Shown here: in pieces, positions 1,852 to 51,448 of the stretch
Position numbering within the stretch: position 1 is the stretch's first letter
Layout: the number at the start of each line of letters is the position of its first letter
Assembly (NCBI RefSeq): GCF_030503595.1
Contig: NZ_CP129966.1
Span: 806,001-870,000 of the forward strand
Length of the DNA: 64,000 nucleotides
From: Corynebacterium sp. P4-C1
GTDB lineage: Bacteria; Actinomycetota; Actinomycetes; Mycobacteriales; Mycobacteriaceae
Direction: 5' to 3'
Notes under the pieces: generated by a model
What the model saw: only the letters and a program-made list of their open reading frames with translations
What the model was told of the DNA's origin: nothing
Databases searched by the model: none
Position numbers and translations under genes: made by a program

Positions 1852-3042
1852 ATGAGAGTCGGAATGATGACCCGCGAATATCCGCCGGAAATCTACGGTG
1901 GCGCGGGGGTCCACGTCACAGAGCTCACGCGTTTCATGCGAGAGCTCGACGGCGTCGAAGTTGACGTCCACTGCATGGGCCAGCCCCGCGACGCCGAGAA
2001 CGTCTACGTCCACGGTGTCGACCCCGCGCTGGAAGAGGCGAACGGCGCCATCAAGACGATGTCGACCGGCCTGCGTATGGCCGACGCCGCCGATAACGTC
2101 GACATCGTCCACTCCCACACCTGGTATGCGGGGCTCGGCGGTCACCTCGCGGGTCTGCTGCACGGCATCCCGCACGTTGTCACCGCGCACTCCCTCGAGC
2201 CCGACCGCCCGTGGAAGCGCGAGCAGCTCGGCGGCGGCTACGACGTCTCCTCTTGGTCCGAGAAGAACGCGATGGAGAACGCGGACGCGGTCATCGGTGT
2301 TTCCGCCGGTATGAAGGACGCCATCTTGCGCGCCTACCCGCGTATCGACGAATCCCGCGTCCACACCGTCCTCAACGGCATCGACACGGCGTTCTGGCAC
2401 CCCACGACCGACCTGCGCGGCGACGGCTACGGCGGGACCAACAGCGTGATCGACCGCCTCGGCATCGACCCGACCCGCCCTGTCGTCGCGTTCGTCGGCC
2501 GCATCACCCGCCAGAAGGGTGTGCCCCACCTGGTGAAGGCGGCCCAGGACTTCGACCCCGGCATCCAGCTGATCCTGTGCGCCGGTGCACCGGACACGAA
2601 GGAAATCGCGGAGGAGATGGAGGGGCTCGTCGATAAGCTCCGCGAAACGCGCGACGGCGTGCACTGGGTGACGGAAATGCTCCAGAAGGAAGACATCCGC
2701 GACATTTACTCCGCGGCCGACATCTTCGTCTGCCCGTCGGTGTACGAGCCGCTCGGCATCGTGAACCTGGAGGCGATGGCGTGCAACACCGCCGTCGTCG
2801 CGTCCGACGTGGGCGGTATTCCCGAGGTTGTCGTCGACGGCGAGACCGGTACCCTGGTCCACTACGACGCGGACGACACCCGGGCCTTCGAGAAAGACCT
2901 CGCCGCCGCCGTCAACGCGCTCGCCCAGGACGCGGAGACCACCTCACGCTTCGCGGCAGCTGGCCTGACCCGCGTGAAACAGGAATTCACCTGGGACAAG
3001 ATCGCCCAAGAAACCGTCGACGTGTACAAGTCGCTTCTGTAA
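1852..3042 (+). CDS. glgA: GT4 glycogen synthase / maltose-1-phosphate synthase (GlgA/GlgM type)
   Basis: A 396-residue GT-B glycosyltransferase. The N-terminus MTREYPPEIYGGAGVHV is typical of actinobacterial GlgA. The C-terminal nucleotide-sugar domain has FVGRITRQKGV (about residue 214) and the E-x7-E motif in EPLGIVNLEAMA (about 302). The mycobacterial homologue (GlgM) makes alpha-maltose-1-phosphate from ADP-glucose and glucose-1-phosphate, which fits the neighbouring glgC. The start ATG follows a GGAGG-like site. One copy of the word CGTCGATAAGC lies in the gene at 2628-2638, reading Val-Asp-Lys. Confidence 0.92.
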   Translation: MRVGMMTREYPPEIYGGAGVHVTELTRFMRELDGVEVDVHCMGQPRDAENVYVHGVDPALEEANGAIKTMSTGLRMADAADNVDIVHSHTWYAGLGGHLAGLLHGIPHVVTAHSLEPDRPWKREQLGGGYDVSSWSEKNAMENADAVIGVSAGMKDAILRAYPRIDESRVHTVLNGIDTAFWHPTTDLRGDGYGGTNSVIDRLGIDPTRPVVAFVGRITRQKGVPHLVKAAQDFDPGIQLILCAGAPDTKEIAEEMEGLVDKLRETRDGVHWVTEMLQKEDIRDIYSAADIFVCPSVYEPLGIVNLEAMACNTAVVASDVGGIPEVVVDGETGTLVHYDADDTRAFEKDLAAAVNALAQDAETTSRFAAAGLTRVKQEFTWDKIAQETVDVYKSLL

Positions 3043-3058
3043 CCCGGAGGACGAAACT

Positions 3059-4456: not shown

Positions 4457-4553
4457 TCTGGGCAGCGCAGCCGGAGCGGCCCCTGCTGGTGGCTGCCGTC
4501 TGATGCGTTGCGGGGCCCGGCTCCAGCTCTGGGATGGGATCCCCGGGTAGGAC

Positions 4554-5432
4554 CTAGCGGCCGGCCTTCTTCAGGCGGGTCAGCTGCGCACGCGCCGTCA
4601 CCGTCATAGTCTCCGGCAACGCGGCGACACGCTCAGCGAGAACCTCGGGATCGAGGTGGCGCGCGGAAGGGCTCATGCCGACCTGCGCGGCGATGGACTC
4701 ACGGTCCAACGACATCGGGAACTCGATGAGTTCGGGCTCCCCGACGGGAGCCAAATGCCCGGCGGCCTGCTCGAGCATGCGCTCGATCTTGCCCTCCTCG
4801 ACACCTAGGATGCCGAGGGGCTCGCGCAGTTCGTCGAGGTGGCCGGCTTGGGGGGTGAGGATGAGGACCTCGCCGTCGTCGACAAGCACGCGGGCAAATT
4901 CCTGCGGGTTGCGCGGCGCGAAAATCACCGTGATCACGTCGACGGATGCGTCGCGCAGCGGCAGACCTTCCCACACGTCGGCGACGACGGCACCGATGTT
5001 GCGGTGCGCCTTCGCCAAATGCTTCGCCGCGGGGACGGCAATGTCCACACCCACGCCGCGGGAATTCTCCACCGCATCGAGAGTGTGGCTCAGGTAGTAG
5101 CCAGTTCCGGCGCCCACCTCGAGGATGGTCGGGGTGGTCGCGGCGTCGTCGTCGAGAGGGAGCCCCTGGAGCGCATCGAGGACGCGCTCAGTGACCGTCT
5201 CCACGAACGGCGCGAAGTGGCCCCGCGACAGGAACGCCTCGCGGGATGCCACCATCTCCGGGCTGTCGCCCTCATGCGCGATCCCGGCACCGGAGGCCAG
5301 CGTGACATACCCCTGCTTGGCCACGTCGTACGAGTGCCCTGTCTCAGACACCAGGCGGGTGAAATCGTCCGCACCCGTCAAGGGGCTACCGTCGACGGGG
5401 TCCGCCAGCACATCAACAATGTCTTTGAGCAT
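4554..5432 (-). CDS. RlmA-type 23S rRNA (guanine-N1) methyltransferase homologue
   Basis: A 292-residue class I methyltransferase. GHSYDVAKQGYVTL (about residues 32-45) is the conserved RlmA segment that normally follows a CxxC zinc finger, and ILEVGAGTGYYL (about 104-115) is the SAM motif. The zinc-finger cysteines are absent: the equivalent stretch reads LADPVDGSPL. The target is expected to be G745/G748 of 23S rRNA by family analogy, but loss of the finger makes specificity uncertain. It is convergent with the GH32-like gene. Confidence 0.75.
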   Translation of the reverse strand: MLKDIVDVLADPVDGSPLTGADDFTRLVSETGHSYDVAKQGYVTLASGAGIAHEGDSPEMVASREAFLSRGHFAPFVETVTERVLDALQGLPLDDDAATTPTILEVGAGTGYYLSHTLDAVENSRGVGVDIAVPAAKHLAKAHRNIGAVVADVWEGLPLRDASVDVITVIFAPRNPQEFARVLVDDGEVLILTPQAGHLDELREPLGILGVEEGKIERMLEQAAGHLAPVGEPELIEFPMSLDRESIAAQVGMSPSARHLDPEVLAERVAALPETMTVTARAQLTRLKKAGR

Positions 5433-5455
5433 GGCGTGTAATTTTACCTGCTGCG

Positions 5456-5626: not shown

Positions 5627-5632
5627 GTGGTG

Positions 5633-5980: not shown

Positions 5981-5989
5981 GAGGCGATG

Positions 5990-6721
5990 TTACCGCAGTT
6001 CGGTCCAGGGCTGGCGTTGGGGAATGTCGTGCATTCCGGCACGCGCGAGGATGGTGCGCGCAACGGTCTCGGCCATGCCGGAAAGCTCGTCGAGGGGACG
6101 GTTGCGGTGGATCCTCTGCCCAAGGTCGACTTGGGTGAGGGAGGAGGGACCGTGGAGGGTGGCGACGTCGATAAGCAGGCCAGCCTCGACGCCGTATCCC
6201 GCGACGAACGGCACCTCGAGTGCGGTGCTGCGGCGGATGGCGTATTCGCCGGCGAGGGGTTGGTCGAGCTCCGGAAGTTGCGGGAAGAGGAGCCGCAGCA
6301 GCGGTTTCGCCGTCAGTTCCGTGACGCGCCCGCCACCGCGCGGCGCACCGTTGAGCGCGCGAGTGTAGGTCGCTTTCGCGAGATGCACACGCTTATCGAC
6401 GAACGCCCCCACCAGCCCGTCAACCCACCCCTCCGAAACGGTCGTCACGTCCGCGTCGAGGAAGACCACGATGTCTCCTTGCGCCGCGCGGACCCCGCGC
6501 CAGAGCGCCTCCCCTTTTCCCGGCTGGACGGGGATGTCCGGGGCGATGTCGCGCCAGTTGATCACCTTCGCTCCGGCGTTTCGCGCGCGTTCAGCGGTGG
6601 AGTCCGTGGAGTCGGAGTCGACGACGATGACCTCGTCTGCGCACGACGCGCGGGCCGCGCGCACGACCCCGGCGACCGTGGCTTCTTCGTTGAGCGCCGG
6701 GATAACGACGGAGACGTCCAC
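5990..6721 (-). CDS. gpgS: Glucosyl-3-phosphoglycerate synthase
   Basis: A 243-residue GT-A glycosyltransferase starting at GTG 6721, which overlaps the folP2 stop by one base (TAGTG). A longer frame exists upstream but lies inside folP2. Motifs are VSVVIPALNEEATV at the N-terminus, VDSDSTDST, and the metal-binding VVFLDADV (about residue 86). The mycobacterial homologue transfers glucose to 3-phosphoglycerate, the first step to glucosylglycerate and methylglucose lipopolysaccharide. Two copies of CGTCGATAAGC lie inside, one per strand (6166-6176 and 6391-6401). Confidence 0.85.
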   Translation of the reverse strand: MDVSVVIPALNEEATVAGVVRAARASCADEVIVVDSDSTDSTAERARNAGAKVINWRDIAPDIPVQPGKGEALWRGVRAAQGDIVVFLDADVTTVSEGWVDGLVGAFVDKRVHLAKATYTRALNGAPRGGGRVTELTAKPLLRLLFPQLPELDQPLAGEYAIRRSTALEVPFVAGYGVEAGLLIDVATLHGPSSLTQVDLGQRIHRNRPLDELSGMAETVARTILARAGMHDIPQRQPWTELR

Positions 6722-7620
6722 TACGCCAGACCCCGAATCGTGTCGAGCGGCGCCGCCACGCCCTGGATCGCCGCAGTGGTGCGGATGACGTCGAGTGTCT
6801 CGGCGACCTCGTGGACACGGAAGGCGGCGACCCCGCGGGCGGCGCACCAAGCAGTGGCGGCGAGTGTCCCCGCGACCCGGTCCCCCACTCCGCGGCCGGT
6901 GGTCTCCCCGATGAAATCCTTGTTCGACAGCGCCATAAGCACCGGCCAGCCGGTGGCGGTGACCTCGTCGATGCGGCGGAGAATCTCCAGCCCGTGGAAG
7001 GTGTTCTTGCCGAAGTCGTGCGTCGGGTCGATGAACACCTTCCCTTCGGGCACGCCGCATTCGACGGCGCGCTCCGCGAGGGCCGTCGTCTCCCGGATGA
7101 CATCGGCGACCACGTCGTCGTAGTGGACTCGGTGCGGGCGTGTCCGCGGAACCGCTCCACCTGTGTGCGAACAGACGTAGCCGACCTTGTGGGCGCCGGC
7201 GACCTCGACGAGTTCAGGTTCGTAGCCCGCCCACGTGTCGTTGATCAGGGTCGCGCCGGCGCGCACGGCTGCCTCGGCGACCTCGGGGCGCCAGGTGTCC
7301 ACCGAAATATCCACCGAGATGTCCGCTGGGCCGCCACTGCTGCTGCCGCCGCTGCCGCCGCTGTAGCGCTTATCCAAGAGTTCACGCACAGCGGCAATAA
7401 ACGGCACCACGCGGTTGATTTCCTCGGCGGCATCCACGTCGTCGCCGGGACCGGCTTTCACGCCCCCGACATCGACAATGGTGGCTCCCGCGTCGACGAC
7501 CTCGTGGCACCGGGAGAGCGCAGCGTCGAGGGCGAAGGTGGCTCCCTTGTCGTAGAACGAGTCGGGGGTGCGGTTGATGATGGCCATGACGCGGGGGAGG
7601 CCGTCGGTAAGCGGGCTCAT
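6721..7620 (-). CDS. folP2: Dihydropteroate synthase-like protein FolP2
   Basis: A 299-residue TIM-barrel DHPS homologue with INRTPDSFYDKGATF at the N-terminus and IDPTHDFGKNT near residue 185. The pterin/pABA loop that reads DVGGESTRPG in true DHPS is DVGGVKAGPG here, as in M. tuberculosis FolP2, which lacks DHPS activity. It overlaps gpgS by one base and the LOG gene by four (ATGA), indicating translational coupling. A Ser/Gly-rich insertion (SGGSGGSSSGG, about residue 92) is unusual. A role beside GpgS rather than in folate synthesis is the better guess. Confidence 0.85.
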   Translation of the reverse strand: MSPLTDGLPRVMAIINRTPDSFYDKGATFALDAALSRCHEVVDAGATIVDVGGVKAGPGDDVDAAEEINRVVPFIAAVRELLDKRYSGGSGGSSSGGPADISVDISVDTWRPEVAEAAVRAGATLINDTWAGYEPELVEVAGAHKVGYVCSHTGGAVPRTRPHRVHYDDVVADVIRETTALAERAVECGVPEGKVFIDPTHDFGKNTFHGLEILRRIDEVTATGWPVLMALSNKDFIGETTGRGVGDRVAGTLAATAWCAARGVAAFRVHEVAETLDVIRTTAAIQGVAAPLDTIRGLA

Positions 7621-8496: not shown

Positions 8497-9588
8497 CTAC
8501 GCGGAGGTGCGGGAAGCCCCGGTCAGGTATGCCATCAACGTGTCGGCGACGGAGCTGATCTGACCGATCGGGCACTGCTCGTCGATCTTGTGGGCGAACC
8601 CAGGGTCGCCGGGACCGAAGTTCACAGCCGGAACACCAAGCGTAGAGAACCGCGACACATCCGTCCATCCGAATTTCGCGCGGAAACTTCCGCCGACAGC
8701 GGCGAGCAAGCCCTGGGCGGCGGGGGCGTCGAGGCCGGGGAGGGCGCCGGGGACGGCATCGTCGTAAAGCAATTCGAGGCCCTCTTCGAGCGCGAGGGTC
8801 TCCTCGATGTGTTGTTTGGCTTCGTCGAGGCTCCGGTCGGGGGCGAAGCGGAAGTTGATGGTGAGGGAGGCTTCGTCGGGAAGCGTGTTCGTCGCCACTC
8901 CCCCGGCCAGCCCCACGACGTTGAGGCCCTCCCGGTATTCACAGCCCGCGATAGTGACGGCGCGTGGCTCGTACTCCGCGATGCGCCCGAGCACGCCGGC
9001 AAGGTCGTGGGCCGCGTTGTGCCCGAGCCACGCGCGGGCCGAATGCGCGCGGGTGCCGCGCGCGGTGACGGTGACGCGGATGCTGCCCTGGCAGCCGGCC
9101 TCGATGATGCCGCCGGACGGTTCGCCGAGCAGCGCCAGCGACCCGGCGAGGAGTTCGGGCTCGTCGCGCTCGAGGTGCGCCAAGCCGTTGTACTCGGCGG
9201 CGACCTCCTCCGCCTCGTAGCAGATGAGCGTCATGTCGAACGCGAGGTCGTCGGAGTTGCACAGGGCCGCGAATGCGTGGAGGTAGCACGCCATGCCGGA
9301 CTTCATGTCCACGGACCCGCAGCCCCACAGCACGTCACCCTCGACGTGGTGCGGGACGTTGTCGGCGATGGGCACGGTGTCGATGTGCCCGGCGAGCACA
9401 ATGCGCTCGCCCAGACCGCGGTTGGTGCGCGCGACGACGGTGTTGCCGCGGCGGGTCACCTCAACGTCAAGGTCCTCGACAGCAGCCTGGATCGCGTCGG
9501 CGATCGCCCCCTCCTCGTGGGACGGCGAAGGAATGTCGATCAAGGCTTTCGTCAACTCGACAGGGTCAGCAAATAGGTCCAGCTTCAC
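8497..9588 (-). CDS. dapE: Succinyl-diaminopimelate desuccinylase
   Basis: A 363-residue M20-family zinc hydrolase that removes succinate from N-succinyl-LL-diaminopimelate. Motifs are LAGHIDTVPI (zinc His and Asp), WGCGSVDMKSG (bridging Asp), CYEAEEVA (catalytic Glu-Glu) and a C-terminal His in GFAHKIDEQCP. The GTG start at 9588 is chosen for its upstream AGGA and because it clears the divergent dapD-like gene, which begins 29 bp away. It works with dapD and dapC in this window. Confidence 0.92.
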   Translation of the reverse strand: MKLDLFADPVELTKALIDIPSPSHEEGAIADAIQAAVEDLDVEVTRRGNTVVARTNRGLGERIVLAGHIDTVPIADNVPHHVEGDVLWGCGSVDMKSGMACYLHAFAALCNSDDLAFDMTLICYEAEEVAAEYNGLAHLERDEPELLAGSLALLGEPSGGIIEAGCQGSIRVTVTARGTRAHSARAWLGHNAAHDLAGVLGRIAEYEPRAVTIAGCEYREGLNVVGLAGGVATNTLPDEASLTINFRFAPDRSLDEAKQHIEETLALEEGLELLYDDAVPGALPGLDAPAAQGLLAAVGGSFRAKFGWTDVSRFSTLGVPAVNFGPGDPGFAHKIDEQCPIGQISSVADTLMAYLTGASRTSA

Positions 9589-9617: not shown

Positions 9618-10553
9618 ATGCCTCAAGGAGCCCGCGCGACAGGAATCGCACAAATCGCCGCTGACGGCACCGTCCTCGACAGTTGGTACCCCACCGTCGA
9701 GCTTATCGACGACATCCCCCACCCCCTCACCCGCCGCGTCAGCGCCAACGAGCTCTCGCCCCGGCTGCTCAACCTGATCGGCATGGACCGGGACCGGCAC
9801 GTGGAAGTAGTGCCGGTGCGCACCGAGATCGCGGACTTGTCGGCCCCCGCCGTCGACGCCCACGACGTGTACCTGCGCCTCCACCTGCTCTCCCACCGCA
9901 AGGTCAAGCCCCTGGAGATCAACATGACCGACGTGCTCGAGCACCTCGTGCCGGTGGCGTGGACGAATAAAGGCCCGTGCCTGCCCGACGACTTCGAGTT
10001 CGTGCGCACAAACCTGCGTGCGCGCGGAAACATCCACGTCTATGGCATCGAGCGCCTCCCGCGCATGGTGGACTACGTCGTCCCCACCGGCGTGACAATC
10101 GCGGAGGCAGAGCGCGTGCGCCTCGGGGCGTACTTGGCGCCCGGCACGAGCGTGTTCCGAGAAGGCTCCGTGTCGTACAACGCCGGAACACTCGGGCCGG
10201 CGCAGGTCGAAGGGCGCGTGCTGTCCTCCTGCGTCATCGGGGCGGGCTCCGACATCGGCCTGTCGTCCTTCGTCATGGCCGAGCGCACCGACGGCCACAA
10301 CCGCACTCCCCTGCGCATCGGCGAGAACTGCGTCATCCGGCCGTCGGCGGGCCTCATCGACCTGAACATGGGCGACCGCTGCGAACTCGGCTCCGGTGTC
10401 ATTCTCGAGCCCGGCACCATCGTCTACGACACCCGCAACCCGGCCGAGAAGACCTACGTCCCCGCCCGGACGGTCACCGAGCAGTCGGACTGGACCATCA
10501 CGCACGAGCCGCATTCCGCGACGCCGGTCGTGCGGAACCGGAACGGGGTGTGA
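9618..10553 (+). CDS. DapD paralogue (tetrahydrodipicolinate N-succinyltransferase family)
   Basis: A 311-residue protein. The N-terminal half matches the other dapD in this window ([25 protein letters not shown]), and the C-terminal half is a left-handed beta-helix with NAGTLGPAQVEGRVLSS. It differs in the acceptor/CoA loop (VMAERTDGHNRTPLRIGENC) and in the helix C-terminus, so it may have a different acyl acceptor. It is divergent from dapE. One copy of CGTCGATAAGC lies at 9701-9711. Either copy could be the housekeeping DapD. I give dapD to the 12.2 kb copy because it keeps the SGGGKETI loop. Confidence 0.8.
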   Translation: MPQGARATGIAQIAADGTVLDSWYPTVELIDDIPHPLTRRVSANELSPRLLNLIGMDRDRHVEVVPVRTEIADLSAPAVDAHDVYLRLHLLSHRKVKPLEINMTDVLEHLVPVAWTNKGPCLPDDFEFVRTNLRARGNIHVYGIERLPRMVDYVVPTGVTIAEAERVRLGAYLAPGTSVFREGSVSYNAGTLGPAQVEGRVLSSCVIGAGSDIGLSSFVMAERTDGHNRTPLRIGENCVIRPSAGLIDLNMGDRCELGSGVILEPGTIVYDTRNPAEKTYVPARTVTEQSDWTITHEPHSATPVVRNRNGV

Positions 10554-10570
10554 CGCTGGGCGGGTGCGGG

Positions 10571-10581
10571 CGTCGATAAGC
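10571..10581 (+). repeat. CGTCGATAAGC copy, intergenic
   Basis: Exact copy of the over-represented 11-mer, 18 bp after the stop of the dapD paralogue and followed by a T-rich tract. It is one of three copies in this window outside genes, all just 3' of a gene. Confidence 0.7.
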
Positions 10582-10657: not shown

Positions 10658-12028
10658 ATGTCGAACACCCTCAACAGCGGTTTGCAAACCCGCCACCTCA
10701 CCATGATGGGTCTGGGCTCCGCCATCGGTGCCGGGCTCTTCCTCGGAACCGGCGTGGGCATCCAGGCCGCCGGCCCAGCCGTCGTCATCGCCTACATCAT
10801 CGCTGGCGCCGTCACCGTCTGCATCATGACGATGCTCGCGGAAATGGTGGCGTCCCGGCCCTCCTCCGGAAGCTTCGCCACCTACGCCGACCAAGCGTTC
10901 GGCGCCTGGGCGGGCTTCTCCGTCGGCTGGTCCTACTGGATCATGCAGGTGCTCATCATCGGCGTGGAGATCACCGGCGCTTCCGCCATCATTTCCGGCT
11001 GGTTCGGCATCGCCCCTTGGATCCCCGCGCTTGTCGCCGTCGTGTTCTTCGCGGCAATCAACCTCGCCGCCGTCCGCGGCTTCGGTGAATTCGAGTTCTG
11101 GTTCGCCCTGATCAAAGTCGCGGCGATCATCATCTTCCTCGTGATCGGCGTGCTCATGGTCGTCGGCCTCTTCCCGGGCATGGACGCCGTGGGAACCAGC
11201 AACATCGACGGTGTCGGCTTCATGCCCAACGGCATCGGCGGCCTCGCCACCGCGATGCTGGCCGTCGCCTTCGCGTTCGGCGGAATCGAACTGGTCACCA
11301 TCGCCGCCGCGGAATCCGAGAACCCCAAGGAAGCCGTCAGCGCGGCGATCAGCTCCGCCATCTGGCGCATCGCGGTGTTCTACATCGGCTCGGTGCTGCT
11401 GATCGTCCTGCTGCTGCCGTACGACCAGATCGCGGGCGCCGACTCGGCCGCCGAATCCCCCTTCACCCTCGTCCTCGACCGCGCGAACGTGCCCGGCGCC
11501 GCCACCATCATGGAGGTCGTGATCGCGCTCGCCCTCCTGTCCGCGTGCAACGCGCAGCTCTATGGCAACTCCCGCCTCCTCTACTCGATGGCTCGCGGCG
11601 GCGACGCCCCCTCCTACTTCGCGCAGACGAATGCGTCGGGTGTCCCGGTCCGTGCGGTGCTCGTCTCGATCGTGTTCGGTTTCGTTTCCGTCGCCCTGCA
11701 GTGGTGGAACCCGCCGGGGCTGCTCACCTTCCTGCTCAACGCTGTTGGCGGCATCCTCATCTCGATCTGGGCGATGGTGATCCTGTCGTACATCCGCCTG
11801 CACCCCCAGCTCGTCGCATCGGGTGAGATCACCAGCGTGCGGATGAAGGGCTACCCGTGGTTGCCGTGGCTCACGCTCGCCACGCTGGGCGGCTTCATTC
11901 TGCTCATGCTTTTCGACGCCAACGGCCGCACCGAGCTCGTCTCCGCCCTCGTTGTCGTCAGCGTGATAGTCGTGACCAGCCTCATCGTGCACCGCGGCAA
12001 GGCTTCCGAACCGGCGCACATGGTCTAG
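10658..12028 (+). CDS. APC-family amino acid permease
   Basis: A 456-residue integral membrane protein with about 12 hydrophobic helices. The N-terminus GLGSAIGAGLFLGTGVGIQ is the first helix of amino-acid permeases of the AroP/LysP/GABA type, and PSSGSFATYAD is the conserved loop after helix 2. It probably imports an amino acid by proton symport. Its position between two dapD-type genes suggests, but does not prove, a lysine or diaminopimelate link. Confidence 0.88.
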   Translation: MSNTLNSGLQTRHLTMMGLGSAIGAGLFLGTGVGIQAAGPAVVIAYIIAGAVTVCIMTMLAEMVASRPSSGSFATYADQAFGAWAGFSVGWSYWIMQVLIIGVEITGASAIISGWFGIAPWIPALVAVVFFAAINLAAVRGFGEFEFWFALIKVAAIIIFLVIGVLMVVGLFPGMDAVGTSNIDGVGFMPNGIGGLATAMLAVAFAFGGIELVTIAAAESENPKEAVSAAISSAIWRIAVFYIGSVLLIVLLLPYDQIAGADSAAESPFTLVLDRANVPGAATIMEVVIALALLSACNAQLYGNSRLLYSMARGGDAPSYFAQTNASGVPVRAVLVSIVFGFVSVALQWWNPPGLLTFLLNAVGGILISIWAMVILSYIRLHPQLVASGEITSVRMKGYPWLPWLTLATLGGFILLMLFDANGRTELVSALVVVSVIVVTSLIVHRGKASEPAHMV

Positions 12029-17586: not shown

Positions 17587-17976
17587 TCACTTCCGCGCCA
17601 CGATGGGCCACACGCCCCCACCACATGCGGCGGCGAGCAGGATTGCGCTGCGAATCTTATGTTCGTCGATAAGCGTGGCGGTCACTTCGGGTCCGAGAGC
17701 GAGCAGCACGAACACGCACAGCCACGCAATGAGCGGCACGAGCGCGCGGAGTGTGTGTTTGCCCACCCAGAGCAGTGCGGTGCGCGTGAATACCGCCCCG
17801 AGGCCCGCCGCGGCGAGGATCGAGGGAACACCGTAGGCACTGCTTATCGACGCCACCTCCACCAGCCCCGCCATCCCCGCCCCCGCGCTCAACCATGTGA
17901 GGCCGGTGCGGGCTTCCCCGGGTCGGAACTGCGTCCGGGTGACGGGGCGGCGGGAGTGGGGCTGCGGGGTTGTCAC
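17587..17976 (-). CDS. Small integral membrane protein
   Basis: A 129-residue protein with about four hydrophobic helices after a basic N-terminus. Its ATG overlaps the mshB stop (ATGA), so it is translated with mshB. No family is recognised beyond a conserved actinobacterial membrane protein. Two copies of CGTCGATAAGC fall within it, on opposite strands (17664-17674 and 17842-17852). Confidence 0.65.
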   Translation of the reverse strand: MTTPQPHSRRPVTRTQFRPGEARTGLTWLSAGAGMAGLVEVASISSAYGVPSILAAAGLGAVFTRTALLWVGKHTLRALVPLIAWLCVFVLLALGPEVTATLIDEHKIRSAILLAAACGGGVWPIVARK

Positions 17977-18861: not shown

Positions 18862-20661
18862 TCACTGTCCGTCGCCGGATTCGGTGCTGGATTCGGTACC
18901 GGAGTCTGGCTGGTCTTCGCTGCGGTCATTTGCGGGGCGGTCCTCCTCGGTCTCATTGCGCTTGCGTGCACGGTCACCGTCACGGTCTTCAGTGGTGTCG
19001 CTGTCTTTGTCTGTCTCTGTGGCGGGCTCTTCAGTCTCTTCAGGGGTGCGTTCGGCGGTCCACTGGGCGGCACCGGCTACACCGCTGTTCCATTTCTGGA
19101 GGTCGGGGTCCGGGCCGGTGATGCCGGTGCCGAGGACCATGATGCGCCGCTCGGAAAGCACGGGCACCCAGACAGCCTCGCGGCGGAGCGTGTCGGAGAC
19201 GGTGTCGCGCGCTTCGGTTGCTGGGATGCGCCCGGAGAGAATATTGGCGGCCATGCCGCGTGTCGACGGGAGACAAAGGCCGCTCAGGTTACCCGCCGCG
19301 AAATCAGTGTCCTCCTGCGGGCACTGGATCCTGCTCGCCCACATGGCGGCACCGCCGTCGATGGACCATCCAACCACAGCATCCACCGTGCCGGCGCGCA
19401 GGCGGGAAGCGGTCTCGGTGGCATCCAGAGCCACCGCCTCAGCGTCGATGCCCTTGCCCACGAGGAGGTCGGCCACAGCGCGTGCAGCTGGCATGGCTTG
19501 GCTGTCGCGTGGGTCGGCGGCGATGCGCAGCGGGCCCGACTCGGCCGCGGCTTTGCGCAGGGCCTCCGGCTCTCCGTCCAAGGGCTGGGTGGAGTCGGCT
19601 GCGGCGAGGTCCCTCGTGCGGCCGGCGGCGATGCGGGAGATGAGGGGGACGTCGATAAGCGATGCAAGCTCCCGACGCGCATCTTTGGAGCCCAGGATCG
19701 GCGAATCCACAGACATGGTCACACCGAGCTCGCGCGGACCTTCCTCGAGGCGCAGCTGCGCGCCGGGAATCAGCGAGTACGCATCCCACGACGTCTCCCC
19801 CGGCACGTGGTCGACGAAGGCGAGTTGGCCGGAGCGCAGGCGGTCCGCGGCAAGTTCCGTCGGCCGGACGAAATTGAGCGTGAGCAGGTCGATATTCGCC
19901 GGGTCCGGAGCCCAAAACCGGTCGTTGCGCTTCAGCGCGATCACGCCGGCGCCCCGGTCGACTTTGTCCACCATGTAATGCCCGGCGGACGCCGGAATCG
20001 TGTCGGCGAGCGCGGTGGCGAAATCCTCCGCACGGGAATCCAGCAAATGCGACGGGAGGAGGTAATTGAAGAGGTCGTGCCAGGAGGTAACAGGCTCGTC
20101 GAAAAGCACGTCGACTGTCTTGCCTCCCGCGCCGCTCACGCGCACATCGCGGATCGCCCGGTAGCCCGCCGGGTCGACGACCCCCGGCGTGGAGGTCATC
20201 CCGCGCCACAGGTACACGAAATCCGCCCCCGTGACCGGGCTGCCATCGGACCACTGCGCGGCCGGGTCGATGACGTAGCGCACGGTCATCGCGGGGGCGT
20301 CGGGCTCCGCGGCGTCCCCGGCGTTGTCGACGACATCAGCGGACACGAGCAAGTCCTCGTTCATGCCACCGGCGCCGAACGCGCTCGGCAACGTGAGCTC
20401 GGCGACGTCGCGCACCGTGGAGAGCTCATCCGCAACTAGGTGCGGGTTCAACCCGTTGCGCAGGGGCTGCACGCCCACATTAGCCTTCGTACGCGCCGCC
20501 GGCTGGGCCGTGGTGGTGGACGTCTCAGTCGCCTCTGTCTCCTCCACGATCGGTGGCGGACCCGGGTTCGCAGAGCACGACGACAACACCCCCAGCGCGA
20601 GAACCGGGGCGAGAATCCTCGCCGCTGTAGCTCTGCAACTGGGGGTGCGCATGAGGGTCAA
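18862..20661 (-). CDS. LpqW-like lipoprotein (family 5 extracellular solute-binding fold)
   Basis: A 599-residue protein with signal peptide and lipobox LSSC (Cys about 29), then an oligopeptide-binding-protein fold: NPHLVADELS, then AQWSDGSPVTGADFVYLW. No permease genes are adjacent. In M. tuberculosis the equivalent neighbour of typA is LpqW, which modulates mannosyltransferase MptB and the PIM/lipoarabinomannan balance; a similar role is likely. The last 60 residues form a Glu/Asp/Arg-rich tail after TERTPEETEEPA, unusual for the fold. One copy of the 11-mer lies at 19650-19660. Confidence 0.8.
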   Translation of the reverse strand: MTLMRTPSCRATAARILAPVLALGVLSSCSANPGPPPIVEETEATETSTTTAQPAARTKANVGVQPLRNGLNPHLVADELSTVRDVAELTLPSAFGAGGMNEDLLVSADVVDNAGDAAEPDAPAMTVRYVIDPAAQWSDGSPVTGADFVYLWRGMTSTPGVVDPAGYRAIRDVRVSGAGGKTVDVLFDEPVTSWHDLFNYLLPSHLLDSRAEDFATALADTIPASAGHYMVDKVDRGAGVIALKRNDRFWAPDPANIDLLTLNFVRPTELAADRLRSGQLAFVDHVPGETSWDAYSLIPGAQLRLEEGPRELGVTMSVDSPILGSKDARRELASLIDVPLISRIAAGRTRDLAAADSTQPLDGEPEALRKAAAESGPLRIAADPRDSQAMPAARAVADLLVGKGIDAEAVALDATETASRLRAGTVDAVVGWSIDGGAAMWASRIQCPQEDTDFAAGNLSGLCLPSTRGMAANILSGRIPATEARDTVSDTLRREAVWVPVLSERRIMVLGTGITGPDPDLQKWNSGVAGAAQWTAERTPEETEEPATETDKDSDTTEDRDGDRARKRNETEEDRPANDRSEDQPDSGTESSTESGDGQ

Positions 20662-24277: not shown

Positions 24278-24652
24278 CTAGGCGCTGGTCAGCTCCTCGC
24301 GGGTGAAACGTGCGCGGCAGCCGTCAGCGCGGGTGAATTCCACGACGACATCTCGGTCGTGCGCGAGGTGCAACAGCCGGGTCGCCAGTTCGCGCTCCGC
24401 ACGCTCGACGGCAGGTTCCGCCCCTTCGACGCTGAGCATGAGCACCCCCTCGGTGCCGATGACGTCACAAGTCGCAGAACCGCTTCCAGGGGCTTGAAGG
24501 GTGCGGTCCGCGGGGAAGGTGAACGTGCCTTTGGAGGTCTCGGGGTCCCAAGTGGCGTCGATAAGCTGCTCAAAATAGCTGGCCAGCAACTTCCCGTACC
24601 GCGCGGGACGGTCGAGTCGCACGCGCGCGGTCGAGGTCACGGTTTTCGGCAT
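24278..24652 (-). CDS. DUF2218 domain protein
   Basis: A 124-residue protein from ATG 24652. VRLDRPARYGKLLASYFEQL and the ending HDRDVVVEFTRADG fit the DUF2218 pattern of small actinobacterial proteins, often found near siderophore or heme genes, though not here. It is convergent with the DUF402 gene and divergent from the DUF808 gene. One CGTCGATAAGC copy (24556-24566) encodes Leu-Ile-Asp. Confidence 0.7.
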   Translation of the reverse strand: MPKTVTSTARVRLDRPARYGKLLASYFEQLIDATWDPETSKGTFTFPADRTLQAPGSGSATCDVIGTEGVLMLSVEGAEPAVERAERELATRLLHLAHDRDVVVEFTRADGCRARFTREELTSA

Positions 24653-28014: not shown

Positions 28015-28032
28015 GCGAAAGCGCTAGCGCGG

Positions 28033-28455
28033 CTATGGTTCGTCGATAAGCCTGTCGCCCTCGTTGATGGGTTCCTCATCGACGGTTTCCTCGTCCGTCG
28101 GCGCGGTGCCGGGGTCGACCTCCGGGTCGTTCTCGGCCTCGTACTCGCGCACGATGCGCGTCGCGGTCTCCGCGATTTCCTTCATGGACTGGTAAAAACG
28201 CCCCATCTCGTTCCACACGCCGTCCTCCGACAGCACACCGAACTGGGCTTCGGGGAAATCTCGGACGTCGTCGCGCCAGATGGATTCGTAATAAGCGATG
28301 AGCTTTTTCATCGAATCCCAGTCCTCGGCAAGCCGCTCCGGGATCTCCTCCCAACGGTCGTTGGCCTCGACGAAGTGGGACAGGCGCCCATCGTTGGCAA
28401 TTATTCGTTCCGGTATGTCCTCGGATCCGGGAAAGTCGTTTTCACCACTGCTCAT
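28033..28455 (-). CDS. DUF4298 domain protein
   Basis: A 140-residue protein. LIAYYESIWRDDVRDFPE followed by FGVLSEDGVWNEM (about residues 52-85) matches DUF4298, a small helical domain of unknown role. N- and C-terminal extensions are acidic. It is convergent with the DUF4185 pseudogene. Its last codons include CGTCGATAAGC (28041-28051), reading Leu-Ile-Asp. Confidence 0.7.
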   Translation of the reverse strand: MSSGENDFPGSEDIPERIIANDGRLSHFVEANDRWEEIPERLAEDWDSMKKLIAYYESIWRDDVRDFPEAQFGVLSEDGVWNEMGRFYQSMKEIAETATRIVREYEAENDPEVDPGTAPTDEETVDEEPINEGDRLIDEP

Positions 28456-29044: not shown

Positions 29045-29055
29045 GCTTATCGACG
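29045..29055 (-). repeat. CGTCGATAAGC copy at a terminator tail
   Basis: Exact minus-strand copy of the over-represented word, abutting the T tract of the cupin terminator. It is one of three intergenic copies. Confidence 0.7.
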
Positions 29056-29235
29056 TCACCCCCTTTTCATCTGGCGGTCACGCTCTGGACATGTCGCCGT
29101 CACAACTGGTCCATGTGCCTGGCTTAGTTTTTGAAATGTCCTGGTTGGAATCTGGCAACCGCAGCACCGTGCGCTGAACGCGGCTCTCCAGCCGGTAATT
29201 CGTTTCACTACCGCCCCCCGGAAAGGTTTCCCACG

Positions 29236-31481: not shown

Positions 31482-32960
31482 ATGACGCAGGACGACAGTG
31501 CCGCTGCGAAAGCCGCCGAGCACGACAGTCACGGCTCACCGTGGCCCGCTCTCTGGTCGATGATGGTCGGCTTCTTCATGATTCTGGTGGATTCCACCAT
31601 CGTTTCCGTCGCGATCCCGGCGATCGCGGAAAGCCTCGAAGCCAGCTACAACGACGTGATCTGGGTCAACAGCGCCTACCTTCTGGCCTATGCCGTTCCG
31701 CTACTGATCACGGGCCGCCTGGGTGACAGGTTCGGCCCCCGGCGGATGTATCTTCTTGGCCTGGCGGTGTTCACCGCCTCCTCCTTGGCCTGCGGTGTCG
31801 CGGGTTCGGTGGGCATACTCATCGCCGCGCGCGCTTTCCAGGGCCTCGGCGGCGCAATGCTGACACCGCAGACCATGTCGGTGATGATCCGCACCTTCTC
31901 ACCTGCCCAGCGCGGCAGCGCCATGGGTGTGTGGGGCGCGGTGGCCGGTGTGGCGACAGTCGTTGGGCCACTGCTCGGCGGTGTTCTCCTCGACCTCGGC
32001 GGGTGGGAGTGGATCTTCATCGTCAACGTTCCCTTCGGCATCATCGGACTGTTTGTGGCGTGGAAGAATGTTCCGGTCCTTGAACTCACCGCACGCCGGC
32101 TCGACTGGCTCGGGGTGGCTCTGTCCGCTGTGGGCATGTTCTGCCTCATCTTCGGTATCCAGGAAGGATCCAACTTCGACTGGGATGCCCGCTCGATCGC
32201 CCTGATCATCGGCGGCCTCGTCTTCATCGCGGCTTTCGTCGGCTGGCAGTCGCGCACGTCCCGCGATGCGCTCGTCCCCCTATCCCTGTTCGCGGACCGG
32301 AACTTCGCGCTCGCCTCGGCGGCGATCACCACCGTCGGTTTCGCAGTGTCCACTTTCGCCATTCCGTGGATGATCTATGTCCAGCGCGTGCAGGAATTCA
32401 CACCCACGCAGGCCGCACTACTCATCCTGCCCTCGGGGCTGGTGTCGGGAGCACTGTCCGGGTTCGTCGGCAAGCTGACCAACACCCACGACCCGAAGCC
32501 TTTCGCTATTGCGGGTTTGGCGGTGACGTCGTTGAGCATCTTCGCCTCGGCTTTCATCACGGACCCGCAGATCAGCCCCTATTGGATGCTGTTCATCAGC
32601 CTCTTCTACGGCCTCGGCAACTCACTGATCTGGGGGCCACTGTCGATGATCGCCACGCGCAACCTCGATCCGTCGCTCGCTGGCGCGGGCTCGAGCGTGT
32701 ACAACACGGTGCGGCAGGTGGGAGCTGTGATCGGCTCTGCCGCTGTGGCTGCGGCGATGTCCTCCCAGCTGTCGCAGCGCCTCGGCGACGGAGGCGGTGG
32801 CGAGGGCGGACACTCCGAAACCGGTCCATTGCCCGAATTCCTCCACGCGCCGTTCGCCGAAGCCATGAGCGTGTCTCTTCTGCTTCCGGCTGGTGTGCTT
32901 GTGATCGGCGTCGCTGTGGCAGCTATGTTCGCGAAGACGCGCACATGGAGCGATAACTAG
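31482..32960 (+). CDS. DHA2-type MFS drug exporter (EmrB/QacA family)
   Basis: A 492-residue protein with about 14 hydrophobic helices. MILVDSTIVSVAIPAIAESL (helix 1) and the motif A loop TGRLGDRFGPRRMY are diagnostic of the DHA2 family. Motif C-like GPLLGGVLLDLGGWEWIFIVNVP follows. It is a proton-driven efflux pump, substrate not predictable. The His/Gly-rich loop before the last helix (GDGGGGEGGHSE) is unusual. Confidence 0.88.
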   Translation: MTQDDSAAAKAAEHDSHGSPWPALWSMMVGFFMILVDSTIVSVAIPAIAESLEASYNDVIWVNSAYLLAYAVPLLITGRLGDRFGPRRMYLLGLAVFTASSLACGVAGSVGILIAARAFQGLGGAMLTPQTMSVMIRTFSPAQRGSAMGVWGAVAGVATVVGPLLGGVLLDLGGWEWIFIVNVPFGIIGLFVAWKNVPVLELTARRLDWLGVALSAVGMFCLIFGIQEGSNFDWDARSIALIIGGLVFIAAFVGWQSRTSRDALVPLSLFADRNFALASAAITTVGFAVSTFAIPWMIYVQRVQEFTPTQAALLILPSGLVSGALSGFVGKLTNTHDPKPFAIAGLAVTSLSIFASAFITDPQISPYWMLFISLFYGLGNSLIWGPLSMIATRNLDPSLAGAGSSVYNTVRQVGAVIGSAAVAAAMSSQLSQRLGDGGGGEGGHSETGPLPEFLHAPFAEAMSVSLLLPAGVLVIGVAVAAMFAKTRTWSDN

Positions 32961-36613: not shown

Positions 36614-37705
36614 ATGAAGATGAAGTACTTCTTCAACGCCGACACCGCCCGCATGCTCGGTGAGCAGCTGGGCATCGACGGCGACGAGTACGCCGCCTGG
36701 GTCGCCCAGAGAGTCGACGACCTAGAGATCAAGGACCGCGTCGGCGTCTTCGCCCGGGGCTTGCGCGACCGTCTTCCCGCGGATTACGGGGAAGCGGTGG
36801 CGGCGATCGTCGATAAGCTCGGCCCCGAACTCGCGGAAGGCGAAGGCTACTTCAACCACGCCTTCCACCTCTGGCCCGTGAGCCGCTACATCGAGGATTA
36901 TGGGCTCGACGATCCGTCCCTCTCGCTCGACGCGATCGAGGCACTCACCCGCGCATTCACCGGCGAGTGGGCCGTGCGCCCGTACCTTACGCACTACCCC
37001 GCGCTCACCATGGAACGCGTCGAGGAATGGTCGCGCTCGACTAGCCACAACGTGCGCCGCTTATCGACGGAAGGCATCCGCCCCCGCCTCCCCTGGGCCC
37101 CCGTTCACCGCCCGTTTCTGGATGATTCTGCACCTATAATTCCGGTGCTGGACCGCCTCTACGCAGATACCTCTTTATATGTGCGCACCTCCGTAGCCAA
37201 TAACCTCAACGACATCGCGCGCACCCACCCTTTACTCGCCGTCGCCACCGCCGAGCGCTGGCTCGCCGAGACCCCGTCCCCGGAGGTCACCTGGGTCGCT
37301 GAGCGCGGCCTGCGCGGATTGATCAGGCAGGGCGACCCCGCCGCCCTCGCTACCGTCGGCTTTGCCGCCACCGACAACATTCAGCTGGTATCCGCAGCTT
37401 TCCCGCCCCGTGTTGCGGTCGGTGAGAAATCCGAGCTCACCGCGCGTGTGGTCAATGCTTCAGATGAACCCCGCGACATTCTTGTCGACTACCGCGTCCA
37501 CTTCCTCAAGAAGAACGGAACCCACCGCCCCACCACCTTCCGCCTCGGCCGGCTCACCCTCGCCCCCGGCGAAGAACGCGACCTGGTCAAGCGTCACTCA
37601 TTCGCTGTCACCAGCACCCGAACTCTCTACCCCGGTACGCACGCCGTTTCCGTGGTGGTCAACGGTGTCGAAAGCGAGCCGATCTCCTTCGAGCTCGTGG
37701 GATGA
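36614..37705 (+). CDS. AlkD-like HEAT-repeat DNA alkylation repair protein
   Basis: A 363-residue protein (ATG 36614; ATG 36605 also possible). Helical repeats fill residues about 20-250, with EWAVRPYLTHYP, WSRSTSHNVRRLSTEGIRPRLPW and YVRTSVANNLNDIA. The last two match the family that recognises alkylated DNA through HEAT repeats. The last 100 residues form an immunoglobulin-like beta-sandwich (VDYRVHFLKKNGTHRPTTFRLG), seen in a subset of these proteins. Two copies of CGTCGATAAGC lie inside, on opposite strands (36808-36818, 37059-37069). Confidence 0.8.
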   Translation: MKMKYFFNADTARMLGEQLGIDGDEYAAWVAQRVDDLEIKDRVGVFARGLRDRLPADYGEAVAAIVDKLGPELAEGEGYFNHAFHLWPVSRYIEDYGLDDPSLSLDAIEALTRAFTGEWAVRPYLTHYPALTMERVEEWSRSTSHNVRRLSTEGIRPRLPWAPVHRPFLDDSAPIIPVLDRLYADTSLYVRTSVANNLNDIARTHPLLAVATAERWLAETPSPEVTWVAERGLRGLIRQGDPAALATVGFAATDNIQLVSAAFPPRVAVGEKSELTARVVNASDEPRDILVDYRVHFLKKNGTHRPTTFRLGRLTLAPGEERDLVKRHSFAVTSTRTLYPGTHAVSVVVNGVESEPISFELVG

Positions 37706-37963: not shown

Positions 37964-38653
37964 ATGACTTCCCGACGCCGTGCCACGCGTTTTACCAGCG
38001 TCATCACCGGTGCCTCCCTGCTTCTCACAGCCTGCGGCGGCAATGAATCCGCCGAGGTTCCCCAGGCGGCGCCGGAGGAACCTGCCGGCGATGTCGAGAT
38101 CGTCACCGTCACGCAGTACAACGACGGCACGGTTCTCGGCCCTGACGACGAAGTCGAGGGCGCGGGCGACGAGAACGAACCCGAGGCCGTCGACGCTGCC
38201 GATGGCGAAGAGGATCACGGCGACACAGGCGAGAACGACGACTCAGACGAGGACACCCAGGACGAAGTGTCCAGCGACCTCGCGCCGGGAGAATCCGCAT
38301 ACATCGGCACCGTGGAAAAACAGACCACCGAAGAGGTCTTAAAGGGCGCGCCGGATCCGAACCCGGACTACAGCAAGCCGTCGGACAGGTACTACGTGCT
38401 CGTGCTCGATGAGCCCACCGAAATCACTGCGCCGAAGGGAGGCAACCCCCAGGGATACACCTACGTCAATGAGATCATCTCCCTCGGAACCAACAGAACC
38501 TACTTCGATTCGAGCGAGCGGTGGGAGCCGTACGTGGGTAAGCGCGTCCGATTGATCGTCGAGTGGGGAGAGCTGCACCACCCTTCCGACACCAGCCTGC
38601 CGCTCGGCGCGGCCAGCTTGGCGCAAGATCGGGGCAGGGTGGAGGAGCTCTAG
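37964..38653 (+). CDS. Acidic lipoprotein
   Basis: A 229-residue predicted lipoprotein, signal peptide with lipobox LLTAC (Cys about 24). A very acidic linker (residues about 45-105, rich in Glu, Asp and Asn) leads to a small C-terminal domain with YYVLVLDEPTEITAPKGG and RVRLIVEWGELHHPSDTSLPLG. No family is recognised. The 258-bp gap before it holds no convincing gene. Confidence 0.65.
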   Translation: MTSRRRATRFTSVITGASLLLTACGGNESAEVPQAAPEEPAGDVEIVTVTQYNDGTVLGPDDEVEGAGDENEPEAVDAADGEEDHGDTGENDDSDEDTQDEVSSDLAPGESAYIGTVEKQTTEEVLKGAPDPNPDYSKPSDRYYVLVLDEPTEITAPKGGNPQGYTYVNEIISLGTNRTYFDSSERWEPYVGKRVRLIVEWGELHHPSDTSLPLGAASLAQDRGRVEEL

Positions 38654-38660
38654 GGGCCAG

Positions 38661-38691
38661 CGCCGTCGTCGATAAGCGTGCAACGACGGCG
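38661..38691 (+). terminator. Hairpin carrying the over-represented 11-mer
   Basis: CGCCGTCGT (38661-38669) pairs perfectly with ACGACGGCG (38683-38691). The CGTCGATAAGC copy at 38667-38677 spans the arm and loop. It lies 8 bp after the lipoprotein stop. The T tract is poor, so it may be a structured 3' end rather than a classic terminator. Confidence 0.5.
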
Positions 38692-46815: not shown

Positions 46816-46818
46816 CGC

Positions 46819-48083: not shown

Positions 48084-48141
48084 GAAGGGATAATACGCCA
48101 TCGCGGATACCCACCCAGGAAACCCGCGTACCCTGGCCGGC

Positions 48142-49536: not shown

Positions 49537-51448
49537 GCAACGCAGGTACCGCAGGTACACCCCGGGCCCGGATCCACTCGCCCCACCGCCCGACCTGACC
49601 AAGGCGGTGCGCGCCATTGCCGACGACGTCATGTATGGCTACTCCACCGAGCAGGCCATGCGCGAGTATCTGCGCCGCGAGGGCTACGACGACTTCCTGC
49701 GCCAGATCGCGGAGCGCCGCCAGGAGCTGCTGCACAAGACCAACCTCGGCGGCACGCTCCGGGAAGCAAAGAAGCTTCTCGACGAAGCGGTGCTCGCCGA
49801 ACGCGGCCAACTCGCCCGCGACGTGGACATGGACGATCTCGACCGCACAATGCGGGAGATGACGCTGGACAACCTGCCCGTCTCCCCCGCGGCGGCGGTG
49901 ACCGAACTGAACGGCTACGACTGGGCTTCCTCAGAAGCGCGCGAGAAGTACCAGCAGATCAAAGACCTCATCGGCCGCGAACTCTTAGACCAGCGCTTCG
50001 CCGGCATGAAAGAGGCGCTGGAAGGTGCTACCGATGAAGATCGCGCATCCGTCGCCGAGATGCTTCGCGATCTCAACGTGCTGTTGGGCAAGCATCGCGC
50101 CGGCATGGCCACGGAGCAGGACTTTCAGGATTTCATGGCCAAGCACGGGGATCAGTTTCCGGAGAACCCCCGCAACATCGAGGAGTTGGTGGAGCTACTT
50201 GCGCAGCGATCGGCGGCAGCCCAGCGCTTGCTCAACTCCATGACACCCGAGCAGCGCGCCGAGCTCATGCAGCTCGCGGCCGAGGCCTTCGGTTCGGAGG
50301 AGCTGATGAACCTCGTTGGCGAGCTGGATGCGAACCTGCGCGGCATCCGCCCCGACCTGGACTGGACCGGGTCCGAATCGTTCGACGGCGACGAGGCATC
50401 AGGCGGCATGGGCCTCGGCGAAGCCACCCGCGCGATGCGCGACCTCGGGCGCCTCGACGAGCTCGCCGCCACCCTCGGAGGCGAACGCCCCGGAGACATT
50501 GACTTGGACGACGTCGCCGACCTCTTGGGCGCTGACGCCGCCACCAGCGCTAAGCATCTGCGCGACTTGGAAAAGGCGTTGCACGACTCCGGATTGTTGA
50601 ACAAGGGCGAGTCCGGCTCGCTGCAGCTGTCCCCGAAAGCGCTGCGTATGCTGGGCAAGGAGCTGCTGAAGGGCGCGACCTCCCAGTTATCCCGCGGCCA
50701 ACGCGATTCCCGTCTCGCCGGTCAGCAAGGCGAACCCACCGGCGGCACCCGCCCTTGGGAGTTCGGCGACACTCAGGCGTGGGACACCACCCGGACCATC
50801 ACGAACGCGCTCCAGCGCAGTGCCGCCAGCGGCGAGCCGTTCGCGATCACCGTGAACGACATCGAAGTGGTCGAAACCGAAGTGCGTACGAAAAACGCCG
50901 TCGCACTCCTTGTGGACACCTCCTTTTCCATGGCGATGGAAGGCCGCTGGACGCCGATGAAGCAGACCGCGCTAGCGCTGAACCACCTCATCACCACTCA
51001 GTTCCGCAGCGACGAGCTCGCGCTGATCGGTTTCGGCCTCTACGCGCAGACGCTGACGATCGAAGAACTCACCGCCCTGCCGCCGATGCAGGAAAAGGGC
51101 ACCAACCTGCAGCACGCGCTGCTTCTCGCTAACGAGTTCTTCACCCGCCACGCCGACTACGACCCGACGCTTCTCATCGTCACCGACGGCGAGCCGACCT
51201 CTATCCTGACCGAATGGGGCCAGGCCTACTTCAACTGGCCGACCGACCGCATCACGCTCGCGCGCACGGTCGACGCGCTTGACTCGGTGACCAAACGCGG
51301 GACGAAGATCACCTTCTTCCGCCTCGGGGATGATCCAGGGCTTGTTTCGCTTATCGACGCCCTCGCCAACCGCTCCGGCGCCAACGTCGTCGCACCCGAC
51401 CTCAACGAACTCGGAGGCGCTGTGGTGGGAGAGTACCTCCACTGGTAA
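49529..51448 (+). CDS. VWA-domain partner of the AAA ATPase
   Basis: A 639-residue protein. The first 430 residues are mostly helical with long charged stretches. The C-terminal von Willebrand A domain carries the MIDAS motif LVDTSFSMAMEG (DxSxS, about residue 464) and VTDGEPT (about 551). It lies in a two-gene operon with the AAA ATPase (8-bp overlap). The gene is intact, but its 3' end lies only about 30 bp before the start of the repeat-bounded toxin-antitoxin mosaic. Confidence 0.85.
   Translation: MAKQRRYRRYTPGPDPLAPPPDLTKAVRAIADDVMYGYSTEQAMREYLRREGYDDFLRQIAERRQELLHKTNLGGTLREAKKLLDEAVLAERGQLARDVDMDDLDRTMREMTLDNLPVSPAAAVTELNGYDWASSEAREKYQQIKDLIGRELLDQRFAGMKEALEGATDEDRASVAEMLRDLNVLLGKHRAGMATEQDFQDFMAKHGDQFPENPRNIEELVELLAQRSAAAQRLLNSMTPEQRAELMQLAAEAFGSEELMNLVGELDANLRGIRPDLDWTGSESFDGDEASGGMGLGEATRAMRDLGRLDELAATLGGERPGDIDLDDVADLLGADAATSAKHLRDLEKALHDSGLLNKGESGSLQLSPKALRMLGKELLKGATSQLSRGQRDSRLAGQQGEPTGGTRPWEFGDTQAWDTTRTITNALQRSAASGEPFAITVNDIEVVETEVRTKNAVALLVDTSFSMAMEGRWTPMKQTALALNHLITTQFRSDELALIGFGLYAQTLTIEELTALPPMQEKGTNLQHALLLANEFFTRHADYDPTLLIVTDGEPTSILTEWGQAYFNWPTDRITLARTVDALDSVTKRGTKITFFRLGDDPGLVSLIDALANRSGANVVAPDLNELGGAVVGEYLHW

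Follow-up and report, generated by a model that had tools for sequence, protein, structure and literature searches.

The stretch analyzed here (herein the window) is 64 kb of DNA from Corynebacterium sp. P4-C1, positions 806001-870000 of a genome held in one contig of 2,313,418 bp, and it contains 16 exact copies of an 11-nucleotide (nt) word, CGTCGATAAGC, 10 on the plus strand and 6 on the minus strand. Dinucleotide shuffles of the window hold a mean of 0.02 copies, and 0 of 100 shuffles reach 16. All 16 copies had been proposed from inspection of the letters alone (the sequence-only reading) and all are real; 15 of the starts given there are exact, and the remaining one, 22298, should read 22297. 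As proposed, 13 copies fall inside called open reading frames (ORFs; a simple ORF caller was used throughout) and 3 fall between them, but the codon series CTT-ATC-GAC, said to occur eight times, was found at 6 of the 13. Two features absent from the sequence-only reading are a G-rich tract upstream of the word and the dialects described below. Each element listed here comprises the 11-nt word and the 32-nt tract 5′ of it (43 bp), the tract being scored as G minus C; exact copies are followed by variants.

2596..2638, plus strand, exact word (2628-2638) with tract, G minus C 11
6134..6176, plus strand, exact word (6166-6176) with tract, G minus C 17
6391..6433, minus strand, exact word (6391-6401) with tract, G minus C 17
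9701..9743, minus strand, exact word (9701-9711) with tract, G minus C 16
10539..10581, plus strand, exact word (10571-10581) with tract, between called ORFs, G minus C 13
17632..17674, plus strand, exact word (17664-17674), weaker tract, G minus C 5
17842..17884, minus strand, exact word (17842-17852) with tract, G minus C 20
19618..19660, plus strand, exact word (19650-19660) with tract, G minus C 13
22265..22307, plus strand, exact word (22297-22307) with tract, inside the typA ORF (20705-22621), G minus C 10
24524..24566, plus strand, exact word (24556-24566), weaker tract, G minus C 5
28009..28051, plus strand, exact word (28041-28051), weak tract, G minus C 3
29045..29087, minus strand, exact word (29045-29055) with tract, between called ORFs, G minus C 7
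36776..36818, plus strand, exact word (36808-36818) with tract, G minus C 7
37059..37101, minus strand, exact word (37059-37069) with tract, G minus C 10
38635..38677, plus strand, exact word (38667-38677) with tract, between called ORFs, G minus C 7
51349..51391, minus strand, exact word (51349-51359) with tract, G minus C 10
273..315, minus strand, variant CGTCGAGAAGC (273-283) with tract, G minus C 14
4845..4887, plus strand, variant CGTCGACAAGC (4877-4887) with tract, G minus C 10
7570..7612, plus strand, variant CGTCGGTAAGC (7602-7612) with tract, G minus C 10
8728..8770, plus strand, variant CGTCGTAAAGC (8760-8770) with tract, G minus C 10
8842..8884, plus strand, variant CGTCGGGAAGC (8874-8884) with tract, G minus C 13
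11908..11950, minus strand, variant CGTCGAAAAGC (11908-11918) with tract, G minus C 10
21956..21998, plus strand, variant CGTCGAAAAGC (21988-21998) with tract, G minus C 9
24752..24794, minus strand, variant CGTCGTCAAGC (24752-24762) with tract, G minus C 12
32433..32475, plus strand, variant CGTCGGCAAGC (32465-32475) with tract, G minus C 8
51709..51751, minus strand, variant CGTCGCAAAGC (51709-51719) with tract, duplicate at 54391-54433, G minus C 8
54391..54433, minus strand, variant CGTCGCAAAGC (54391-54401) with tract, in the later copy of a duplication, G minus C 8

Exact copies and many relatives are captured by the family CRTCGNNAAGC, which occupies 43 places in the window. The sequence-only reading counted one copy after 39 kb; this is right for the exact word, whereas 10 of the 43 family places lie there, 5 of these 10 having the CATCG spelling that is near background in P4-C1. 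The window also carries a direct duplication (51465-52798 and 54147-55480; 1,334 bp, 99.3% identity) with two family words in each copy, and these words are therefore not independent.

Across the whole genome CGTCGATAAGC occurs 493 times, 248 on the plus and 245 on the minus strand, so that the 10:6 strand bias noted earlier is correct for the window and does not hold genome-wide. The same word read backwards, which serves as control, occurs twice, once per strand, and the family has 1,399 copies vs. 98 for its backward form. In 400 kb of sampled stretches CGTCGATAAGC is the most over-represented 11-mer (68 copies vs. 0.27 expected under an order-3 Markov model); the prospect, raised by the sequence-only reading, of a genome count near the Markov expectation is not borne out. 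Sequence-level reading covered at most ~26% of the genome, the whole-genome counts coming from a search tool. Family words are present in each of 23 sampled chromosome stretches at 4 to 16 per 20 kb, with counts per 20 kb near Poisson (variance/mean 0.92, 285 family words) and a density of approximately one copy per 1.7 kb. The word is polar and non-palindromic; 27 of the 285 family words are intergenic (the non-coding share is 10.7%), and inverted pairs within 25 bp number 3. Within ORFs the family words of the sampled stretches are antisense 170 times and sense 86 times, and 44 of 82 exact in-ORF copies in this larger sample read antisense as Leu-Ile-Asp (the CTT-ATC-GAC frame). Replication-strand bias is absent, with origin and terminus placed by GC skew, in 21 stretches plus the window (family 137:139, exact word 41:49); other origin and terminus choices give 142:134 for family words.

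Alignment of 115 distinct copies with their flanks shows that positions -32 to -1 are rich in G at the cost of C, with A and T little changed; the skew begins and ends abruptly, composition beyond it is that of the background, and G is favored downstream of the word at +11 (0.60) and +13 (0.52). The flanks resemble one another in composition and not in sequence. The tract can serve to probe the word independently. When it is called at G minus C of at least 8 in 32 nt over a 484-kb sample, it precedes 136 of 276 CRTCGNNAAGC words vs. 4.7% of random places. For single-base variants with at least 10 occurrences the tract fraction ranges from 0.00 to 0.23, except for C at position 8 (24/62), and a few rarer variants score higher on counts that are too small to rely on (T at position 7, 4/5; T at position 0, 3/5). 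The P4-C1 signal is thus approximately CGTCGNNAMGC, with AT the commonest NN, and 43 bp long together with its tract; CGTCGATAAGC is one spelling of it. A strong tract is missing at about half of the words and is hence a preference, not a rule. Mean G minus C is 7.0 for antisense (167 copies), 8.4 for sense (81) and 8.3 for intergenic copies (27), and because the tract is equally strong in intergenic and coding copies, codon choice cannot explain it.

We then considered a genus set of 121 genomes, P4-C1 included, with CRTCGNNAAGC read backwards as control. This set represents Corynebacterium, since a record of that name (L110; 18 family words vs. 0 backward in 21 kb) falls inside the genus tree and genome G106 matches a record named C. 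urealyticum at ~91-93% across longer pieces. The family reaches at least five times control in 92 of the 121 genomes (320 to 1,969 copies, median 1,128), two to five times control in 7 and less than two times control in 22 (51 to 130 copies). All 80 genomes of the same order outside the genus are below two times control, and among 297 other genomes sampled across the phylum none exceeds 411 copies; the highest ratio to control among these 297 is ~6 (G206, 44 vs. 7), and the few others at ~5 have fewer than 200 copies. Small genomes of one family, f34 (e.g., G269, G412 and G456), have CRTCGNNAAGC at ~5 times control with fewer than 200 copies each, perhaps driven by codon usage. The tract was present in 10 of 10 word-bearing samples, the deep-branching G098 included; in G042, G047 and L110, where each sample has 8 to 19 words, clear bias is confined to the 16 nt nearest the word. 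A tree of the tad-adjacent helicase (19 genus genomes and three named records), labeled before the A-rich dialect described below was found, places word-poor lineages at several points and word-poor G014 next to G006 and G110.

Related species carry dialects with a shared core, differing in CGTCG or CATCG, in position 8 and in a form consisting of CGTCG and an A-rich stretch. CATCG makes up 91-96% of words in G006, G052, G093, G104 and G110; the share of A at the second base is 77% in G072 and 72% in G083, with a median of ~5% in the remaining genomes. By the frequency of C at position 8, the 98 non-background genomes tested divide into 45 with three or more times control, 24 with 1.5 to 3 times and 29 with less than 1.5 times. 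A search that starts from the tract places it before CGTCG 93, 89 and 52 times in G015, G065 and G033 (44, 39 and 29 expected), and in these three genomes the control GCTGC shows no excess behind the tract. An A-rich stretch follows 25/93, 16/89 and 23/52 of the tract-borne CGTCG, as against 36/701, 31/596 and 46/547 of those without a tract (Fisher p = 7e-10, 9e-5 and 2e-10, same order). In G053 there is a hint of a further form, the tract preceding GCGTCA in 13 of 44 cases, the top score among all six-base words tried. Hence the notion that all 22 genomes below two times control are losses was dropped, G015, G033 and G065 showing another dialect and G053 a hint of one. No tract excess before CGTCG was found in G030 and G028 (26 vs. 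32.2 expected) or in G040, G061 and G119 (65 vs. 76.5); the latter three may be decaying rather than empty, because CRTCGNNAAGC (2.2 to 2.7 times control) and CGTCGNNACGC (2.6 to 5.4 times) still exceed control. CGTCGNNACGC is also two to three times control in some genomes classed as background (G003, G039, G094). Observed and expected counts of the tract before CGTCG are 18 vs. 10.4 in G014, 25 vs. 17.2 in G038, 26 vs. 17.6 in G106 and 15 vs. 10.2 in G010, and the remaining word-poor genomes show no clear alternative form at the depth sampled.

Other recurrent words were seen in this material. A second over-represented word near GCAGCTGCGCA has 10 copies in 60 kb vs. 0.1 expected (loci L051-L053, G029), and the near-palindromic CCCCGTGGGGA is enriched with 6 copies in 40 kb vs. 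0.06 expected (L076, L096, G042). The DnaA-box-like TTATCCACA is probably ordinary, both in pooled loci of G010, G015, G033, G053, G065 and G106 (13 vs. 1.9 expected) and in L079 and L098 of G014 (5 vs. 0.2).

At sites aligned to the window, the family word is kept at 37/37 places in a genome of the same species (97.6% identity) and, in four further relatives, at 16/22 (85%), 24/35 (84%), 7/23 (75.5%) and 6/26 (77%). The 11-mers at words are unchanged in 34/37, 13/22, 20/35, 6/23 and 4/26 cases (same order), compared with fractions of 0.83, 0.20, 0.21, 0.07 and 0.07 for in-frame neighboring 11-mers; the excess is clear at 84-85% identity and rests on small numbers at 75-77%. Relatives also bear words where the window has none. 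Since words are kept above their neighbors and relatives have extra ones, the signal is under maintenance while its sites shift through point changes. The sequence-only reading had looked to absence from orthologous sites as evidence against a signal, and what we find is retention above the neighboring in-frame 11-mers; this conservation and the 493 copies against 2 support its view of a genome-wide signal and not codon chance.

Genes for DNA import are general in the genus. ComEC was found in 121/121 genomes, the TadA family in 118 (112 over cut-off) and prepilin peptidase in 120 (112 over cut-off), and ComEA adjoins ComEC in 20/20 loci by tblastn, the gene caller having overlooked it in 5 of them. 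A TadA scan of contigs kept 80 loci, only two of them from Corynebacterium. P4-C1 itself has Pfam matches to a ComEA-type helix-hairpin-helix, ComEC domains, T2SSE (TadA), T2SSF (two membrane proteins) and DUF4244, the last in a pilin-like protein of 81 amino acids (aa). We read two further proteins as TadF-like, with a weak Tad family match below cut-off (E 0.0024), and TadE-like, with no Pfam match. Located 3′ of comEA-comEC-holA in P4-C1 (L069:11822-12864) are two genes assigned by Pfam, one for a small ankyrin-repeat protein and one for a LysE-type exporter; several word-bearing genomes have a relative of at least one of them at the comEC locus, and word-poor G014 has the LysE one there.

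We hypothesize that the word and its tract are a DNA-uptake (transformation) signal of Corynebacterium, working like the DNA uptake sequences (DUS) and uptake signal sequences (USS) of other bacteria, a proposal drawn from analogy to which we give an even chance. The G-flanked word could behave as a tag that lets a cell recognize DNA of its own kind for uptake. We observe a word and tract that are linked, abundant across the genus, free of strand bias, split into dialects and conserved with turnover, in genomes with ComEA, ComEC and tad genes; a polar word with these properties, and with a core beside a biased flank, looks as uptake sequences do. The sequence-only reading named uptake, recombination, segregation and nucleoid-protein sites without choosing between them; even strands, dialects and confinement to a single genus point, by inference, to uptake. 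What we infer beyond this is a receptor, uptake itself and a role for the tract. A surface receptor, probably on or near a Tad/Flp-type pilus, would recognize double-stranded DNA via the word (approximately CGTCGNNAMGC in P4-C1); the one-sided G-rich 32-bp flank would set DNA shape or aid the start of entry; ComEA and ComEC would bring the DNA in; and homologous recombination would spread tagged alleles, words building up by preferential uptake. A change of receptor would give rise to dialects, and its loss to genomes without words.

The precedents are partial. The DUS of Neisseriaceae are likewise non-palindromic words of ~10 bases with at least 1,000 copies, dialects with a shared core (eight, with core CTG; PMC3630211) and competence genes. 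They share no sequence likeness with the present word, which has a 32-bp G-rich flank, and their receptor is ComP, whereas receptor and uptake are putative here; in addition, copies here are not scarce in genes and form few inverted pairs, although such scarcity and such pairs are usual, if not defining, traits of DUS and USS. The USS of Pasteurellaceae, as described in PMC7811141, combine a short core, some bases of which are strictly needed, with composition-biased tracts, evolve by point mutation and accumulate by preferential uptake; their tracts are AT-rich, as against the 5′ G-rich flank here, and their word and phylum are unrelated. The same source describes strong uptake sequence preference for two Gram-negative families. 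Closer in phylogeny is the actinobacterium Micrococcus luteus, which also has ComEA, ComEC and tad genes and in which Flp pili and ComEA/ComEC are part of the transformation apparatus and required for transformation (PMC4322843); the main text of that paper mentions neither "uptake sequence" nor "Corynebacterium". A genome scan for spaced motif pairs included three Corynebacterium, and the Corynebacterium patterns shown in its accessible part are clustered regularly interspaced short palindromic repeats (PMC5217627). Our literature search, in which most subscription journals were not covered, found among the matches listed no description of CGTCGATAAGC or of a Corynebacterium uptake sequence, and no report of natural competence in the genus; five of the matched papers have the 11-mer somewhere in their text.

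Besides the two missing traits, several observations weigh against an uptake signal. ComEA, ComEC and tad genes are equally present in word-less genomes, those of word-poor G014 are no more diverged than the genes of its word-bearing relatives, and across the genus the presence of TadA or prepilin peptidase does not correlate with words. Matches are split over two frames in some word-rich genomes (comEC in G001 and G113, tadA in G100 and G111), perhaps by frameshifts or sequencing errors. No receptor gene confined to word-bearing genomes lies beside comEC, tadA or tadV in the 20 of 121 genomes inspected for each. As this machinery is the same with and without words, a specific receptor, if any, lies elsewhere. 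Two candidate differences were rejected: a TadE-like segment seemingly specific to word-bearing genomes is missing in word-bearing G098, and a rule of longer ComEC frames in word-poor genomes is broken by G014 and several word-bearing genomes.

The main rival is a Chi-like site of AdnAB, which we regard as unlikely but worth serious consideration. AdnAB, a helicase-nuclease that resects DNA ends, would meet the word from its 3′ side and change mode, and RecA would load on the C-poor, little-folded G-rich strand just 5′. This scheme fits a polar word flanked on one side only, the flank lying on what would be the 3′-tailed strand, where poverty in C would suit RecA loading; it also fits the RecB-type nuclease domain PF12705, present in 121/121 genomes, often in frames of ~1,000 to 1,100 aa, the length expected for AdnB, which we take these frames to be. 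Chi sites are likewise polar and frequent in the host genome, and in many, though not all, species they are in excess on the leading strand. Here that bias is absent; RecC was found in 0/121 genomes, implying no RecBCD (AddAB was not searched for by name); PF12705 does not correlate with words, and word-poor genomes such as G014 and G010 retain PF12705 frames of more than 1,100 aa; and rapidly changing species dialects and a longer bipartite word, with a 9-base core and a tract, are unlike known Chi sites. No title on Chi in Corynebacterium was among our literature matches.

A site for a chromosome-organizing or segregation protein (a nucleoid protein, an FtsK-type guide or an SMC loader) is less probable still. 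The spread of words through all the sampled chromosome stretches would suit it, but chromosome guide motifs are strand-biased and here the strands are even, the word is non-palindromic and restricted to no domain, and dialects and near-absence in some species are hard to square with an essential function. We think it very improbable that the signal acts in RNA, for example by loading Rho on the C-rich complement: the antisense excess would yield C-rich mRNA, but it fits a single preferred reading frame (Leu-x-Asp), and the tract is as strong in sense and intergenic as in antisense copies. A by-product of codon usage or of a protein motif, or a dispersed mobile repeat, has the preferred Leu-Ile-Asp frame in its favor; these readings are already contradicted by intergenic copies, several frames, both orientations, a backward control at background and flanks alike only in composition, and we give them next to no credence.

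Whatever its function, a signal of more than 1,000 copies with species-specific spelling in a well-studied genus calls for explanation. Returning to uptake, a stronger version, to which we give slightly less than even odds, is that Corynebacterium has an uptake code of its own, of independent origin and the first in Actinobacteria, in which a two-part tag with at least four dialects decides which species exchange genes by natural transformation. If true, this would be a third, independent case of an uptake code, in mycolic-acid bacteria, and would test how such codes arise and whether a second membrane favors them. Natural competence would then be expected in a genus whose members include strains used in industry and commensals of skin and mucosa; the code would also provide a route for introducing DNA into resistant strains and account for barriers to gene flow between species.

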